Shown piece by piece: positions 1 through 56,023 of a stretch of DNA of 64,000 bases (positions are counted from its first letter, which is position 1; each line of letters begins with the position of its first letter). Position numbers and translations under genes: made by a program. Source of the DNA: Nocardia sp. NBC_01730 (GTDB lineage: Bacteria > Actinomycetota > Actinomycetes > Mycobacteriales > Mycobacteriaceae); NCBI RefSeq assembly GCF_035920445.1, contig NZ_CP109162.1:2728001-2792000 (forward strand), read 5' to 3'. Under the pieces are notes generated by a model, which did not search any database, was not told the origin of the DNA, and saw only the letters and a list, made by a program, of their open reading frames with translations.

Positions 1-1679
1 CCCGCACGGGCGAACAACCGCGCCGCGTCGCGCAGTTGCGCGCTGATCCGACCGACCAGGTCGGCGCCGCCGCTGTCGATCTCGGCCGCCGTGACGCCGA
101 GCAGCGACGTGCACGCGGCAAGTCGCACCCGGTCGCCGCGGTGCGGCTGTTCCAGCGCCCGCAGCAGCCACAGCCAGTCCGTCGCGCTGCTCGTCGCGAA
201 GACGCTGGTGCCGCCGGCGAGCACGGAGGCGACACCGACGCGGTCCAGCGCGGCGCGCACCACGTCGATCTGCGACCGGGTCCGCACCAGGACCGCGATA
301 TCGCCGGGCCCTACCGACGTGCGCACCGCACCGCCGGGCGTCGGGAGCCCGCCGACATCGGCGGCGACAACAGGTTCGACCTTCGCGTCGAGCAGGACGC
401 CGGATTCGAGCAGGCGGACGACATCGGCGGCCAGATCAGCGGCGACCTCGGCGCGCATCCGGCCGACTGTCGGGAAGCCGGACTTGTTCAGCGGACCCGC
501 GCCGGTCCGCGGCAGGCACCGCATCCGCATCGGGGTGGTCAGCTCACCGGGGCCGGACAGACGCGACCACGGCCTGGTCGCGGCGACCGGATGCACGCTG
601 ATCTCCGGGTGCCCCAACGCCGCACCGCCTTGCAGGTGGTCCAGCGCGGCGAGCAGCCCCGCGTCACTGCGCCAGTTGGTGGTGAGTTCCGTGCGCGTGT
701 CGGCGTGTGCGACCGCGTCCAGGTAGCTGAGCACCTCGGCGCCGCGGAAGGCGTAGATCGCCTGCTTCGGGTCGCCGACCAGCACCAAGGTGGCGTGCCC
801 GTGGAATGACCTGCGCAGGATGTCCCACTGCAGCGGGTCGGTGTCTTGGAACTCGTCGACGAGGGCGACGCGGTACCGCGCGCGAATGCGGCGGCAAGCG
901 CGCGGGCCGTGCTCGGGATCGGCGAGCACATCGTGCAACAAGACCAGCAGGTCGTCGAAGTCGCGCAGCCCGGCAAGCCGTTTGCGGCGCTCGGTCTCCG
1001 CGCGCGCCGCGCGCGCGAACGCCACCCGCTCACCTGCCGCGGACTCGTCGTCCGGAACGAGCACCGCGTGCCGGTCCCGCACCGCGGCCAGGGCCAGGGT
1101 GCGCGCCTCCTTCAGAGAGAACCGCGGTTCGGCGCGGGCGTAGCGGTCGAGGTACAAATCGTCGGCGACAGTGCCCACGAGATCGTCCACGGTCTCCACC
1201 AGCCGGGTGCCGGGATCGTGTTCTCCCGCGAGACCGAGTTCGTCGAGCATGCGCTGGCAGAAGCTGTGGGTGGTGGCGATGGTGCCCGCGTCGAAATCCG
1301 ACAGCGCTGTCAGCAATCGGCGCCGCCGCAGCCGCACCTCATCGTCGTCGGCCCGCGCCAGATATCGGACCAGGTCGTCGGCGTGCGCCCGCGCCGAGTC
1401 CGGATCCACCAGCCCCGCCGCGACGGCGACGAACCGGTCGCGCGTGCGTTCCCGCAGCTCCTGTGTCGCCGCCCGGCTGAACGTCACGAGCAGCAGCTGC
1501 GACACCTCGATGCCGGCTTCGGCGACGTACCGTACGGCGAGACCGACGATCGCGTGCGTCTTGCCGGTGCCGGCGCTGGCCTCCAGCACGGTCGTCCCCG
1601 TCGGCAGCGGACCATACAGCTGGAACGGGTCGGTGGCATCGAATCCGGGCGCGGCGAACGAGGTCTCCTGCACAGTCAC
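1..1679 (-). CDS. recB: RecB, exonuclease V beta subunit (partial, C-terminus outside window)
   Basis: Helicase/nuclease subunit of the RecBCD complex, which processes DNA double-strand ends for recombinational repair. Only the N-terminal 559 codons are inside the window; the gene runs off the left edge. The GTG start is chosen because a GGAGGGAGG ribosome site lies about 5 bases upstream and the translation begins directly with the family N-terminus. Superfamily 1 motifs are readable: Walker A EASAGTGKT (residues 33-41), LLLVTFSRAATQELR (about 65-80), VDEFQDTD (274-281, motif II), GDPKQAIYAFRG (about 305, motif III) and TNWRSD. recC lies 238 bases upstream on the same strand, so the usual recC-recB-(recD) transcription unit is likely. 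recD would be to the left and is not visible. Confidence 0.95.
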   Translation of the reverse strand, partial: MTVQETSFAAPGFDATDPFQLYGPLPTGTTVLEASAGTGKTHAIVGLAVRYVAEAGIEVSQLLLVTFSRAATQELRERTRDRFVAVAAGLVDPDSARAHADDLVRYLARADDDEVRLRRRRLLTALSDFDAGTIATTHSFCQRMLDELGLAGEHDPGTRLVETVDDLVGTVADDLYLDRYARAEPRFSLKEARTLALAAVRDRHAVLVPDDESAAGERVAFARAARAETERRKRLAGLRDFDDLLVLLHDVLADPEHGPRACRRIRARYRVALVDEFQDTDPLQWDILRRSFHGHATLVLVGDPKQAIYAFRGAEVLSYLDAVAHADTRTELTTNWRSDAGLLAALDHLQGGAALGHPEISVHPVAATRPWSRLSGPGELTTPMRMRCLPRTGAGPLNKSGFPTVGRMRAEVAADLAADVVRLLESGVLLDAKVEPVVAADVGGLPTPGGAVRTSVGPGDIAVLVRTRSQIDVVRAALDRVGVASVLAGGTSVFATSSATDWLWLLRALEQPHRGDRVRLAACTSLLGVTAAEIDSGGADLVGRISAQLRDAARLFARA

Positions 1680-1917
1680 GCGTGCCTCCCTCCTGCGCCC
1701 GATATCGCACGCTCCGCGGGCGCCACGAAGGTTTTCGGCCGGCCGGCGCCGCGGGCCGTGGGGACGATCCCCCGCGTTCGGGCCGGACGCGGACGCCCGA
1801 GCTGCCATTCTGCCGGGTGGGCGACGACGACCTGGCGACCGCCACGCGACGTGGGTGGGCCGGGCTCCGCGCGCCGGGCCGTGCCGAACGGATGGTCACG
1901 GACCGCGCCGTGGCCGC

Positions 1918-4900
1918 TCACGGCTGACCCTGGCTTTCCGCGCCGAGCAGCGGAGCCCACATCCGTCGCGCCAGCGCGCCGAATCGGGTGGCCTCGCCGC
2001 GCTCGCCCGCGGGAGCGGGCGCGGACATCAGGTCGTCGAGGCGCGGCGCCGGACCCCACACGTAGCGCAGGTGGCGGTCGGTGTGATCGCCGAACGGGCC
2101 GGGACCGTTGGGGCCGCCGTCGAATTCGCGTTCGGCCGCGGCGACGGCGTCGTCGATGCTCGCGCCGCGGAAACGGCGTTCCGCGTAGACCGCGGTCGCG
2201 GTCGGCGCGATGGGCAGCGGCTCGGTCAGTCCCAGATCGCGCACGGCGACGAGCTCCCGCAGGATCTCCCTGGCCACGGGCGCATCGGGTGCGGTGAGCT
2301 CGCAACGCCACGCGGGGCGGCCGAATCGGCCGCGGCCGGTGCTCACCGCACGCCACGACCGATCCTCGGTGACGGTGAGGGCGAGAAGCGAAACCCACGC
2401 ACCGATGCGATGTTTCGGGGCCAGCCGGGAGAAGGTGGTGCGAACCAGGGTGTCACCGCGAACCTCGGGCACAGTGCCGGTCAGCCTGCGGCCGTTGCCC
2501 AGATCCACCACCACGTCCACGGCCCGCGGAGTACCCGCGTAGTCGGCCTGCGAGGCGCGGACCAGCCGGTCCACGGTGTGCTCGACCTCGTCGAGCACGG
2601 CGGCGCCGAAACCGAAGGGCGGCAGCGTACCGCGCCGCCACTCGGCCGCGCGCAACCCCGCCGGGTCGGCGCCGGTCAGGCGGGCCGCCAGGAGACGCTC
2701 GCCGAGCTCCCACTTCGCCAAGCCGTCGAGTTCGATGGGCAGCCGGTCGGCGATGTCCTCCTCGTGCTCGGGGACCCGCAGGCCGAGCCGCTGCCAGAGG
2801 AACGCGCGCACCGGATGCTCGACGAACGAGATCAGATCGGCCAGTGCCACATCCGCGGCCTCCGGCGCGGGCAGCGGCGCCGCGAGGAACGGAGGGCGCG
2901 CTTGCGCGGGCCGGCCGGCCGCGTGCGCACCGGCCAACGCCACGGTGTCGAAGCTGAACGGCCGCTCGGCACGGAAATTGCGAAGGTCGAAGGGCTGCAA
3001 CGGATGCCGGGTGACCACCACGTCCATCGCGGCGGCGCCGACATGGGCCCGCAGCGCGTCCAGCAGCTCGGCGACCGGGATCGCGGGCGGGCGGTGCGCA
3101 CCGCTGACCGGGTCCGCGCCGGTGTGGAGCACCAGCAGCGTGTCACGCGCCGCGAGCACCGCGTCGAGCAGCAGTTGCCGGTCCTCGCTGCGCGGATCCC
3201 GTTCCCCGAGCAGCGGTTCCCTGGCGAGCACGTCGTCGCCGTCGACACCACCCGCGCGCGGGAACACGTCGTCGTCCAGTCCGAGCAGCACCACCACCCG
3301 GTGCGGCACCGACCGCATCGGCACCATCGTGCACACGGTCAGCTCGCCGGTGCGGAAGTTGGCCCGGGTCGGCCGCGCCGCCAGCCGCGAGCGCAGCAGC
3401 ACCGCGACATCGGCCAGCCGCAACGGCACCTCGCCCGCGTGGTCGGTGGCGGCGGCGATCTCCTGCCTGGCCTCGATACGCATCCATGCCTGGGCGTCCG
3501 CCACGTCCGTCAGCAGGTCGAGCGCGCGGCCGAGCACCGCGGCCCACTCGTGCGCCGGGCGGGGACCACGCAGGTCGCGCAGGCACACGGCGAGCCGATC
3601 GATGAACTCGGCGAAGCGTCCGGCCAGGTCGACGTCGTTGCTGTCCACGTCGTCCAGCGGGAGCGCGAGATCCAGCCAGTCGTCGGAGGTTTCGCCCGCT
3701 GTGACGCCGAGCAGGATCCGGTCCACCGCGCTGTTGAGCGTGTTCTGAGCGAAGTCGGCCAGACCGAACGCCTGCCGCTGGCGCTGCCCGATCCCCCACC
3801 GCGCGCCCGATTCGGCCGCCCACTCGCGCAGCCGCTCGATGTCCTCGTCATCGAATCCGCAACGGCGCCGGACCGTTTCGGCTGCGGCGAGGTCGAGCAC
3901 CTGGGTGACGGTCACCCGGCCGTCGGCCAGCTCGAGCAGGACGCCGATCACCGCGAGCAGCGGGTTGGTCACGCCGCGTCCCCGATCGGCGAGGCGCACC
4001 CGCAGGCGATGCGCCGGATGCTCCGAATCGCCCTGCGGCTCAGGCGATCCCGGCATGCGCTGACCGAACGCGGCCCGCACCAGTGGCGCGTACGCCTCCA
4101 CCTCGGGACACATGACGAGCACATCCCGCGCCTCCAGAGTCTCGTCGGCCGCGAACAGCCCGAGCAGGCAGTCCCGCAACACCTCGACCTGCCGCGCGGG
4201 ACCGTGACAAGCGTGCACCCGCACGGTGCCGTCGGCGCCGACCTCGCCGGTCCTCGGCGGCCAGCGATCGTTTCGGATCCCTGCCTGCAACGCGCGCAGC
4301 AGTGTCATGTTCTGCGAATCCCCTTCCAGCGCACCGACTTCCGCAGGGAAAAAAGTGGCTCCCTTCGAGGGATGGTAAGTGTCGCTGCCCGTTGCGGCGG
4401 GTTCGGCCAACCGCTGCTGGAGTTCCCGGACGTCGCGGGCCAGTCCTGCGAGCAGCGGATGCGCCACCGCTGTCGTGGTGCGATCGTCGGCGCGCCTCCG
4501 CACCGCGGGCGCCCGGTCCAGGAGCGACCACATGGCCGGGCTCGGATGGGACAGCCACAGGTGGATCTCGCGGCCAGCGGCCAGCGCCGACAGCACCGCG
4601 AGCTGGTCGCTGGGAAGCCGGGTCACGCCGAACAGCGACAGCCGTGGCGGCAGCGTCACCAGATCCGGTTCCGCGCGCAGCCGCGCGCAAGCGGCATCCA
4701 GCCGCTCGGCCGGACTAGGCGCCCCGACCTCGGCGCGCAGCCCGCGCCACAGCATCGGCTGCCAGCGCAGGTCATCGGGCACCTGACCGCCCGCACCATC
4801 GCCATCCAGGCCCGCCGCCCATGCGGTGAGCAGCTCTGGACGCTGCGACCCGTAGCTGTCGAACAGCGCGGCAAGGTGTGCCGCGGTGGCGTACCGCCTG

Positions 4901-46336: not shown

Positions 46337-47695
46337 TCAGGTCTCGAGATCGGCCAACCAGTGCAGGGCGCGCAGGCCGGGCACGAAGAAATACTCACCT
46401 CCCCGTGTGACGACGAAAGCCGGCAAACCCTGTAGCCGCCGACGGATCGGCTGTTGAGGGATGGTGAAGTGATCGCTTCCGCTGTTCGCGCCCGCGATCG
46501 GGTCCTTATCGCCGGCAGGGCCATGAAAGAACTGCCCCTTGTTCATCCACTCCGACTGGACGAACTCGAATTGCCGCTCCAAGTTCGCGCCGACAAAGAC
46601 GAACGCCAACCCTCGTTCGGCGCCATCGTCCTCGATGACCCCGGGCGGAAGCATCGGGCCGTAGCTGGTGCCGCGCCGGATCATGCGATGAAAACGCGCG
46701 AAGCCGCTGATGTCCGAGTCGCGCGGATTCAGACGTCGAATGTGCGAGCCGGCGGGTGTTTTCAAGCCCTGCGGATCATTCTTGTAGAGGAAATCATTGT
46801 TGAGTTTCGGGTCGGCACCCAACTCGGGGTCATCGCGCATTGGACACAGCGCCAACGGCGCGCCGCTCTGCCAGCGCCCCATCATCTTTGCCGCCAGAAA
46901 GTCTTCCTCTTCCGGGCTCGAGGAGTTCGCTTTCAGATACTGGCGAAACGCCGCAACACGTTGGTGCAGCTTCCGAAAAGCGACGTAGGTGCCGTTCTTA
47001 CCCAGGACCTCGGGCCGCGGCATCGGAGACAGTTCATGCCGCTCATTCTCATAGCCCAGCAAAAACTCGCCCGCCTTAAGGGGCTTCTCTTGGGGGTTCG
47101 ATCCGGGAATGCCGCTGCCTTCAATTGCTGGATGGCTGATGCCGTCCCGGAACCCGAAAGCTTCTTTCTCCGTGGGCAGCACGTGACAATCCAGGTGCCA
47201 TATGGCGGTGACCCCGGAGAGTTCCTCAAACGCCGTCCGGGCGCGCGCGAGTACGGGCTCGAGCCGCGCCGTGTCGGGGGAGAGCGCGCTGAGCCCGACA
47301 TGGACATCCGGGGTCCCAAACGGCTTCTCCCAGTTTTCGGGGGCGCTGTCACCGACATCCCCCAGTTCTGCCGCACGCGCGGCCATGCCCTGCTGGAACG
47401 CCAGGGGGAAGCTGTCGAGCGAGTCCTGCGGAACACCCAGCGCCTCGAGGCCCTGGAAGCTGAGTCCGGCACTGACCCAAGCCTGGTGGCTTGGATCCAT
47501 CGGGCTCGTGGCGTCGGCGAGCGCGGGAATCAGCCTCCGTAACAGCTCGCGACCGGCGCGCCGGTCGTCGATGCGCAGCACAATATAGGCGCCGACGTAC
47601 GGCGAGGGCCGCGGATGTATGGCCCCGTTCTGGATATCATCCAGTTCGAGCACGACAGGCTCTTCTACTGTTGCCATGGATACGTTCGTCTCCAT
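46337..47695 (-). CDS. Dye-decolorising (DyP-type) haem peroxidase
   Basis: 452-aa DyP peroxidase: H2O2-dependent oxidation of bulky substrates. The GxxDG motif reads FGFRDGISHP, with the catalytic Asp; the proximal His is likely in GSHIRRLNPRD, and distal-side Arg and core elements follow in FHRMIRRGTSYGP and GLAFVFVGANLERQFEFVQ. No twin-arginine or other signal, so cytoplasmic. Length fits the large DyP classes rather than the ~350-aa encapsulin-cargo type, and no encapsulin gene or cargo tail is seen. GGAGG ribosome site. 37 bases after the 191-aa protein gene, same operon. Confidence 0.93.
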   Translation of the reverse strand: METNVSMATVEEPVVLELDDIQNGAIHPRPSPYVGAYIVLRIDDRRAGRELLRRLIPALADATSPMDPSHQAWVSAGLSFQGLEALGVPQDSLDSFPLAFQQGMAARAAELGDVGDSAPENWEKPFGTPDVHVGLSALSPDTARLEPVLARARTAFEELSGVTAIWHLDCHVLPTEKEAFGFRDGISHPAIEGSGIPGSNPQEKPLKAGEFLLGYENERHELSPMPRPEVLGKNGTYVAFRKLHQRVAAFRQYLKANSSSPEEEDFLAAKMMGRWQSGAPLALCPMRDDPELGADPKLNNDFLYKNDPQGLKTPAGSHIRRLNPRDSDISGFARFHRMIRRGTSYGPMLPPGVIEDDGAERGLAFVFVGANLERQFEFVQSEWMNKGQFFHGPAGDKDPIAGANSGSDHFTIPQQPIRRRLQGLPAFVVTRGGEYFFVPGLRALHWLADLET

Positions 47696-54145: not shown

Positions 54146-54593
54146 GCGGCCGGCCACCGTAGCTGGGATATATCCGCCGGCGCCACTCGGAACAACGGCG
54201 CCGCAGGCGGATGTTCGCAGCGCGGATGCCGTGATCCTCGGACCGCCCTATCCGTCCGCCCGCAAACTTGTCGCGTCACCGGGCGAACACCGCACCGAAC
54301 TCGCCGATCGCCCCGGCCTACTCGGCATCCACCGACGGCACGCACGGCCACACGGCCGCCAATCCCGAGCTATGAGCACCGATCTCGCGCCGCGTTCAGA
54401 TAGCTAGAAGATTGCGCCGTAACAATTCCTGGCCTGCCGAAAAACTTTCGGCGCTAGCGCCTCTCACACCGGAATTAGGTTTGCCACCGGCCGTGAAATC
54501 TCTCGATCCGAGCCGATCGTCAGCCTTCCCGCGATATGATCGCTCACACGCCAGGGGGTCGTGGCAAATCGTGAGCAGATCGGAGAAACGGCT
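54146..54593 (+). other. Intergenic region before the RiPP-like unit, 448 bases
   Basis: No convincing gene on either strand. The last 180 bases are comparatively AT-rich and should contain the promoter of the precursor gene; a GGAG ribosome site lies 9 bases before its ATG. No palindrome stands out. Confidence 0.4.
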
Positions 54594-55049
54594 ATGACCG
54601 ACGGAATCCGCCTTCCCGGGACCGCGCCGAAGTATGATCGCGTTCCTCCGCTCCAGGGGCTGCTGGTGGCGGAATCGGAACGCGAGATCACCGTGCGCGT
54701 CGCCGAGGGAACATGGACGTTCTGTCGGTCCGACGTGCTGCGGGTGGTGGATTCCGTGGCGCCACACCCCGATCAAGACGGCCGTCCGGTGCTCGTGGAC
54801 ATCCGCGCGGGCGCCACCGCCGACTTCACCCGCCGACTGCGCATCGACCTGGTCGATCGGCCGATGACCATCCCGGAGTCGCCGTCCGAGGCGCTGGGCG
54901 ACGACCAACTCCGCCAGCTCACCGAAATCTGGGCGGACCGCATGCAACTCGTCGATTGCCCCGGGTCGAACGGCGCGACGTTCACCTACTGCCAGACCAA
55001 ATCGTCCGACGGCAGCGACGACGGCATCAACTGCGACAGTCTCGACTGA
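54594..55049 (+). CDS. Putative graspetide-type RiPP precursor (151 aa)
   Basis: Immediately upstream of an ATP-grasp ligase gene (11-base gap). Residues 1-~90 look like a folded beta-rich leader (REITVRVAEGTWTFCRSDVL; GRPVLVDIRAGATADF), ~95-120 is helical (SEALGDDQLRQLTEIWADRM), and the last 30 residues are quite different: DCPGSNGATFTYCQTKSSDG then SDDGINCDSLD. This tail has Thr129, 131, 135, Ser137, 138, 141, 149, Lys136 and Asp139, 142, 143, 148, 151, i.e. hydroxyl/amine donors near carboxylates as required for ester or amide rings, plus Cys122, 133 and 147. Start ATG 54594 with GGAG upstream. The RiPP assignment is inferred from pairing and tail composition; otherwise it is an unknown protein. 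Confidence 0.65.
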   Translation: MTDGIRLPGTAPKYDRVPPLQGLLVAESEREITVRVAEGTWTFCRSDVLRVVDSVAPHPDQDGRPVLVDIRAGATADFTRRLRIDLVDRPMTIPESPSEALGDDQLRQLTEIWADRMQLVDCPGSNGATFTYCQTKSSDGSDDGINCDSLD

Positions 55050-55060
55050 ACGGCCGGCAC

Positions 55061-56023
55061 ATGGCGGCGCGCCGGAAGGGTTCGGTCCTGATCGTGTCCG
55101 AATCCGATGATCTGCACGGCTCCGCGATGGCGGCGACGTTACGAGAACACCACGGGCTCAGCCCGATTCGACTCGACCTACGCGATTTTCCGCGCGAGGC
55201 CGGCAGTTTCCGGCTGGACCGGCTCGGTACCGCGCGCTCGCTCTCACACCTGATGGGACTCGACGATGTCCAATCGGTGTGGTGGCGGCGCCCGCATCCC
55301 GCCCAGGTGCCCGCGGGGGTACGCGCCTCGGACAACGATTTTCGCCAGTCCGAATGCGACGGGTTCATCCAGGGTCTGCTCTGGTCGATCCCGGCCTGCT
55401 GGGTCAACGATCCCGGCGCCGACCGTACCGCGGGCCGCAAGATCGTGCAGCTGGAGACGGCGCTGCGGGCCGGGTTCACCGTGCCGGAGACGCTGATCAC
55501 CAACGACCCGGAGGAGGCGCGTACCTTCGTCGAATCTCGGCCGGGCCCAGTGGTCTACAAGCGCACCGGCACCAGCCGGGCCGAGTTCGCCGAGACCAGG
55601 ATCATCACCAGAGACGATTTCGGCAGGCTCGCGGCGATCCGTTCGGCGCCGACCACCTTCCAGGACTACGTCGACGCCACCTGCGACCTGCGTGTGGTCT
55701 GGGTGGACGGCGTCGAATGGACTGTGCGCATCGACTCGCAAGCCGGGGTCGGCAAGGTCGACTCCCGCCTGGACACGTCGGTCGATTTCGTGCCCGACCA
55801 CCTGCCCGCCGCGGTGAGCAAGTCGCTCGCGACGCTGATGGGCGCACTCGGCCTTTCCTTCGGCGTCCTCGACATCCGGCTCGGCCGCGACGGCGAGTAC
55901 TACTTCCTCGAGGTCAACCCACAGGGCCAGTTCGCCTACCTGGAGATCAAGACCGGCCTGCCGATCTTCCGCAGCCTGGCCAACCTCCTGGTCGACGGCG
56001 ACGGCATGGTGGCGGGCTACTGA
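55061..56023 (+). CDS. ATP-grasp peptide ligase (graspetide maturase-like)
   Basis: 320-aa ATP-grasp enzyme of the MvdD/RimK-like peptide-maturase type. N-terminal domain KGSVLIVSESDDLHGSAMAA and the typical SVWWRRPHPAQVPAG; central ATP-binding segment GPVVYKRTGTSRAEFAETR; then FQDYVDATCDLRVVWVDGVEWTVRIDSQ (a D-x-R of the kind noted in graspetide ligases) and the Mg-binding VLDIRLGRDGEYYFLEVNPQGQF with D, E and N. Such enzymes phosphorylate Asp/Glu side chains of a precursor and link them to Ser/Thr/Lys. The gene just upstream is the obvious substrate. No dedicated protease, transporter or methyltransferase is beside it. Confidence 0.88.
   Translation: MAARRKGSVLIVSESDDLHGSAMAATLREHHGLSPIRLDLRDFPREAGSFRLDRLGTARSLSHLMGLDDVQSVWWRRPHPAQVPAGVRASDNDFRQSECDGFIQGLLWSIPACWVNDPGADRTAGRKIVQLETALRAGFTVPETLITNDPEEARTFVESRPGPVVYKRTGTSRAEFAETRIITRDDFGRLAAIRSAPTTFQDYVDATCDLRVVWVDGVEWTVRIDSQAGVGKVDSRLDTSVDFVPDHLPAAVSKSLATLMGALGLSFGVLDIRLGRDGEYYFLEVNPQGQFAYLEIKTGLPIFRSLANLLVDGDGMVAGY

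Follow-up and report, generated by a model that had tools for sequence, protein, structure and literature searches.

Does the gene pair at positions 54594 to 56023 of the 64,000-nt stretch of the Nocardia sp. NBC_01730 chromosome analysed here (the window) form a graspetide-type unit of precursor and synthetase, and what would such a unit do in this genus? We consider it probable that the pair is a minimal unit of this type. A 151-aa ORF with a Cys/Ser/Thr/Asp-rich tail is followed, after 11 bases and on the same (+) strand, by an ATP-grasp ligase ORF; the coordinates, lengths, gap and tail composition given in a first-pass annotation were all confirmed on the sequence. The features of the locus are as follows.

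54495..54515, +, GAAATCT / CGATCCG block, lying 5' of the -10-like box (conserved among the anchored sequences)
54535..54540, +, TATGAT, likely -10 box (conserved in the anchored set)
54562..54585, +, 5' element TGGCAAATCGTGAGCAGATCGGAG, conserved; precedes the start codon and contains the likely ribosome site
54594..55049, +, 151-aa protein resembling a precursor, made up of a barrel (residues 20-80), the RPMT motif, a helix and a Thr/Ser/Asp tail
54651..54833, +, barrel part, residues 20-80, six predicted strands (AlphaFold2)
54858..54872, +, R89-P90-M-T-I motif, possibly recognised by the ligase (from conservation)
54894..54941, +, predicted helix, residues 101-116 (AlphaFold2)
54975..55046, +, predicted core/tail, residues 128-151, ATFTYCQTKSSDGSDDGINCDSLD (from conservation; boundary set by G127)
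55061..56023, +, ATP-grasp ligase of graspetide-synthetase type, 320 aa

The ligase, its neighbours and the control region

The ligase is homologous to six PDB sequences (E from 1.7e-12 to 2.5e-29), named ATP grasp ligase, MvdD-like, AMdnB, CdnC and ATP-grasp domain-containing protein. Homology to 5ig8, 5ig9, 7m4s (AMdnB), 7mgv (CdnC) and 7drm extends across nearly the whole ligase; three of these entries presumably carry the names MdnC/MdnB and PsnB, and a further match, 9bou, we take to be an actinobacterial-looking relative, a point in common with fuscimiditide and other graspimiditides. The D-x-R and E-x-N motifs reported in the first-pass annotation are residues 271-273 and 284-286, and E284-N286 aligns with the E-x-N of the 5ig8 chain, from the microviridin-/plesiocin-type synthetases. 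Core and leader of the window pair differ from those types, and all curated family cut-offs lie above the scores of the ligase, which counts against a graspetide unit. The best NCBIfam match is TIGR04187, the SAV_5884-type actinobacterial ligases (E 2.3e-64, residues 9-310, 217.6 bits where 350 is required); TIGR04185 (MvdC) gives E 3.9e-49 and 167.5 bits against 425, TIGR04184 (MvdD) gives E 1e-39 and 136.6 bits against 475, and the Pfam MvdD pre-ATP-grasp family gives 26.5 bits against a threshold of 27. The 151-aa protein belongs to no family in these collections (best Pfam match E 0.32; no NCBIfam match). Ligases 59-66% identical are present in the protein database, one of them labelled Phytomonospora endophytica.

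No transporter, protease or methyltransferase had been noticed beside the pair, and we recognised none when the ORFs were read and five proteins were scanned against Pfam and NCBIfam; the lack of a recognised protease or transporter there is a second point against a graspetide unit. Genome-wide, no C39 peptidase was found, and the model of the isoaspartyl-type methyltransferase dedicated to graspimiditides (TIGR04188) gave five weak matches, none over its cut-off. Among 88 loci (some of partial length) the neighbours include a small HTH protein (87), an ABC-F protein (86), a cupin (68) and a MarR protein (68); these stable neighbours look separate from the precursor/ligase pair.

Upstream of the pair, the TATGAT box, the GAAATCT/CGATCCG block and the 5' element are all conserved across an alignment of 68 sequences anchored on that element; the TATGAT box is not among the matches of a sigma-70 consensus scan. 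The 5' element occurs as a single copy in the genome. Scanning of 94 loci found it with at most six mismatches of 25 in 83 and with insertions in L050 and L053; it is not recognisable in L051, L071, L074-L078, L097 and L103.

The precursor-like protein and its tail

The first-pass annotation took the N-terminal ~120 residues to be folded and the last 30 to be a tail, and the AlphaFold2 model (33-row input alignment; mean pLDDT 71.6, pTM 0.44) agrees, showing the tail as loose: six strands are predicted for residues 20-80 and a helix for 101-116, with ten-residue mean pLDDT of 78-96 over residues 21-80, 74-77 over the helix and 42-53 over the tail. Between barrel and helix, R89 and P90 are found in all 107 homologues and T92 in 106. 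This conserved RP(M/I/L)T(L/I) stretch bears only a loose resemblance to the leader motif Phhx(1,2)h that PMC8939145 reports for about half of graspetide precursors. The same paper describes a small-residue (GG-like) pair ahead of the core; the corresponding pair here is GG in 19 of 107 homologues by pattern, and we placed the core boundary before residue 128 because G127 is found in 82 of the 107.

Conservation of the tail was counted twice, in the 107 homologous proteins and, at the DNA level, in 78 loci (76 of the 77 loci with a tail-bearing upstream ORF, plus L053 and L111; L037 was left out by a script filter though its tail is present, and L072 and L073 have none). In the protein set T131, D148, S149 and the terminal D151 never vary (107/107 each), D143 is found in 105, position 129 is Thr in 101, Ser in three and Ala in three, and position 147 is Cys in 102 and Ser in five; T135 is kept in all 88 proteins having that column (residues 133-141 are absent in 19 of 107). 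In the DNA set position 131 is Thr in 69 loci and Ser in nine, D143 and D148 are found in 78/78 each, T129 in 77/78, T135 in 68/68, C147 in 71/78, S149 in 77/78 (Asn in L048) and D151 in 77/78 (Tyr in L053). Both counts thus indicate that the hydroxyls at 131 and 135, the acids at 143 and 148 and nearly always the acid at 151 are retained, and the short-core variant (ending ATFT-F-(R/H)-DGINCDSLD) keeps these hydroxyls and acids as well. All 107 homologues terminate exactly at D151, and an Asp-Gly within the predicted loop of the tail is conserved among them. The locus has two of the defining features of graspetides: a ligase homologous to characterised synthetases and an adjoining precursor with conserved C-terminal Thr/Ser and Asp/Glu. 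Ester or amide side-chain cross-links, each costing 18 Da, are a further such feature and are predicted here.

A non-conserved tail had been named beforehand as grounds for abandoning the graspetide reading; the tail is near-invariant in both sets. A picture of a constant leader and a variable core does not fit, since the mean majority share among the 107 homologues is higher at the tail end (0.93, residues 142-151) than in the barrel (0.77, residues 19-53), and the linker (residues 119-126) is loose at 0.47. A core so nearly invariant is unlike many natural-product cores and also counts against a graspetide unit. The three tail Cys residues singled out earlier fared unequally: C147 is kept (102/107), C133 less so (70/88), and C122 is unconserved (20/106); the protein has a fourth, C44.

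Linkage, distribution and loss of the precursor

A tail-bearing ORF lies directly upstream of the ligase in 77 of 80 named loci; the other three are L053, with a changed end (NRDSLY), and L072 and L073, which have no precursor. This linkage, together with the near-invariant tail, argues that the pairing is more than chance. In L053 NRDSLY stands in place of NCDSLD, and its ligase retains all 12 residues checked (see below). L031 and L111 each have one internal stop within the aligned ligase, with a tail-bearing precursor upstream in both.

Of 148 Nocardia genomes, 134 have a precursor match (E 0.001) and 144 a ligase match (E 1e-20). The four genomes lacking the ligase (G010, G055, G122 and G137) are all among the 14 lacking the precursor, and searching these 14 and G837 with the profile gave E 0.2 at best. 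The first-pass annotation had named partner proteins occurring without the ligase as evidence against its reading: none of the 134 precursor-bearing genomes is of this kind. Phylum-wide, the precursor profile matched in three of 396 sampled genomes (nine candidates scored per genome), all Nocardia. At E 1e-40 the ligase was found in eight of 394 genomes of the class, half of which belong to other genera (four genomes, 36-39% identity). Relatives in other genera, 35-39% identical, have different upstream genes, a further point against the graspetide unit.

One locus from another family of the order (L122, in G837, - strand, 1501-3241) carries a ligase 39% identical to P0212 and, directly before it, a tail-less 139-aa protein; 64 columns of its barrel region can be aligned to the Nocardia profile (hhalign E 1.7e-4, 20% identity, probability 49.5%). 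Ahead of this protein is a 134-aa ORF with a Cys/Thr/Asp tail, which does not align (E 0.5). The barrel protein possibly serves as an in-trans leader, as judged from a single locus and a middling hhalign probability.

A second, more distant ligase (28.7-29.2% identity by tblastn) is found in two of the 148 Nocardia genomes. At these loci (L106/L107, in G022 and G111) the adjoining ORF of 117-118 aa ends in TLDPWGADCD. At two other loci (L092/L093, in G438 and G362) a 406-421-aa ORF, in which an astacin-like HEIGHT motif can be seen by eye, abuts an ATP-grasp ligase; this ORF is a candidate large substrate or protease.

The ligase stands without a precursor in ten genomes (L072, L073, L096-L098, L100 and L102-L105; L099 and L101 are repeats of L072 and L073). 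We compared these orphans with a paired set of 80 ligases (78 named, L111 and the window). Out of 130 ligase columns invariant in the paired set, only N286, K297 and D238 are changed or gapped in all ten orphans and 72 are in none, with the changes clustering at 169-176, 224-243 and 286-297. N286, the Asn of E-x-N, is Asp in nine orphans and Glu in one; an Asp at this position might still bind metal. Twelve ligase residues chosen beforehand from family knowledge and then scored per locus gave the same division: all 12 are kept in 82/82 paired loci (79 distinct records), and the complete set in 0/12 unpaired loci (ten genomes). By parsimony the tree, built by a quick method with long orphan branches of unsure placement, needs three precursor losses, at least two by the starred branches, so the ten orphans stand for just two or three events of joint decay. 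These repeated losses show which parts of the ligase are tied to the tail: N286, K297 and D238, with the loops that hold them.

The orphans seem, from substitution rates, to be under purifying selection and still useful, which is another point against the graspetide unit. Four close orphan pairs (three with sequences in common) give dN/dS of 0.11-0.17 and two wider pairs give 0.26-0.30, with 0.04-0.18 for 13 pairs of paired ligases; the low values suggest that the ligase can be useful even where the precursor is missing. The orphan ligases remain open despite the changes at N286, K297 and D238, and possibly have a new role. The 5' element is recognisable in eight of the ten (not in L097 and L103), followed by a short ORF (17 to ~35 codons, by eye) and then the ligase. 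In L100 (G063) the ligase match falls in two pieces inside a single 497-aa open frame. In L101, from the L073 genome, a 33-codon ORF just upstream of the ligase has a precursor-like start (MTDAIRLPG) and no barrel, and its end is a Thr/Ser/Cys/Asp-rich stretch.

Readings of the pair

The graspetide reading of the first-pass annotation is supported in part: homology and linkage speak for it, as do the conserved tail and the repeated joint decay; cross-links, connectivity and function are predictions from sequence. The ligase would use ATP to activate the side chains of D148, D151 and perhaps D143, and the hydroxyls of T131, T135 and perhaps T129 would close nested omega-esters, two or three ester rungs giving a stem-loop like that of fuscimiditide. 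The barrel, the RPMT motif and the helix would recruit the ligase. Either a peptide of ~24 residues would be released or the whole protein would retain the cross-linked tail, and the product would have one constant role across the genus.

Fuscimiditide, as described in PMC12291112, has a stem-loop closed by an inner Thr7-Asp18 and an outer Thr3-Asp22 link. Its T-x3-T...D-x3-D is comparable with T131-x3-T135...D148-x2-D151: two Thr and two Asp are placed for a nested stem-loop, and the Asp-Gly in the loop is likewise a feature of graspimiditides. The window protein differs from fuscimiditide in its D-x2-D, its barrel leader and its nearly frozen core, and the pair, unlike graspimiditides, has no neighbouring graspetide methyltransferase, nor does any in the genome score over the cut-off. 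Rosaritide and corallotide need a partner protein (PMC13097080), so an extra protein beside the synthetase can be required, as the tail-less protein of L122 recalls; in the window the barrel is instead fused to the tail and a separate partner gene is absent.

Such partners lend something to the idea that the real substrate of the ligase lies elsewhere and that the 151-aa protein acts as its partner or regulator, as do L122 and the open, apparently selected ligases of the ten genomes without the protein. We regard it as improbable: the best conserved part of the protein is the tail, which has no predicted fold and has the donor/acceptor make-up of a core, and loss of the protein accompanies change of the metal-site Asn of the ligase. 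Equally hard to credit is RimK-like chemistry, in which an amino acid or other amine is added to the C-terminal Asp or to a tail Asp side chain. The uniform end at D151 looks as though the C-terminus were the substrate, but Thr/Ser at 131 and 135 are retained too and L053 ends in Tyr; a weak match to TIGR00768 (rimK_fam, 24.6 bits) is far below its cut-off of 143.4, against 136-218 bits for the graspetide-ligase models, and the PDB relatives found are of graspetide type.

Compatible with any of these readings, and standing at somewhat less than an even chance, is that the pair is an ordinary lineage-specific graspetide within an already published group, special only by its host. The 2026 survey in PMC13097080 lists 21,584 predicted graspetides, and its new groups 27, 28 and 35 hold only synthetase and precursor. 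With such groups in view, the statement of the first-pass annotation that it recognised no described graspetide group is provisional. On the other side, a word-start search of the main text of that paper (member tables lie outside it) found none of 'Nocardia', 'group 28' and 'group 35', and a text search of PMC8939145 did not find 'Nocardia'.

Within the graspetide reading, we describe the unit as graspetide-type with a folded barrel leader and a private control region that is conserved; no dedicated protease, transporter or methyltransferase was recognised for it. Most graspetides come to light as natural products that are patchy and changeable; a pair in 134 of the 148 genomes whose core is near-frozen suggests a constant role in physiology, a question that is open for graspetides and can be tested here. 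The folded leader, with its possible in-trans relative in L122, would widen views of how such ligases find their substrates. Rather unlikely, though worth stating, is the fullest version: housekeeping graspetide chemistry across most Nocardia, in which a folded protein under its private control region keeps its cross-linked tail instead of giving rise to a released peptide natural product and, after loss of that protein, the ligase with its altered active site takes up a new role.

Elsewhere in the window, a 452-aa ORF (46337-47695, - strand) has the look, by eye, of a Dyp-type peroxidase and is flanked by two ORFs on the same strand.
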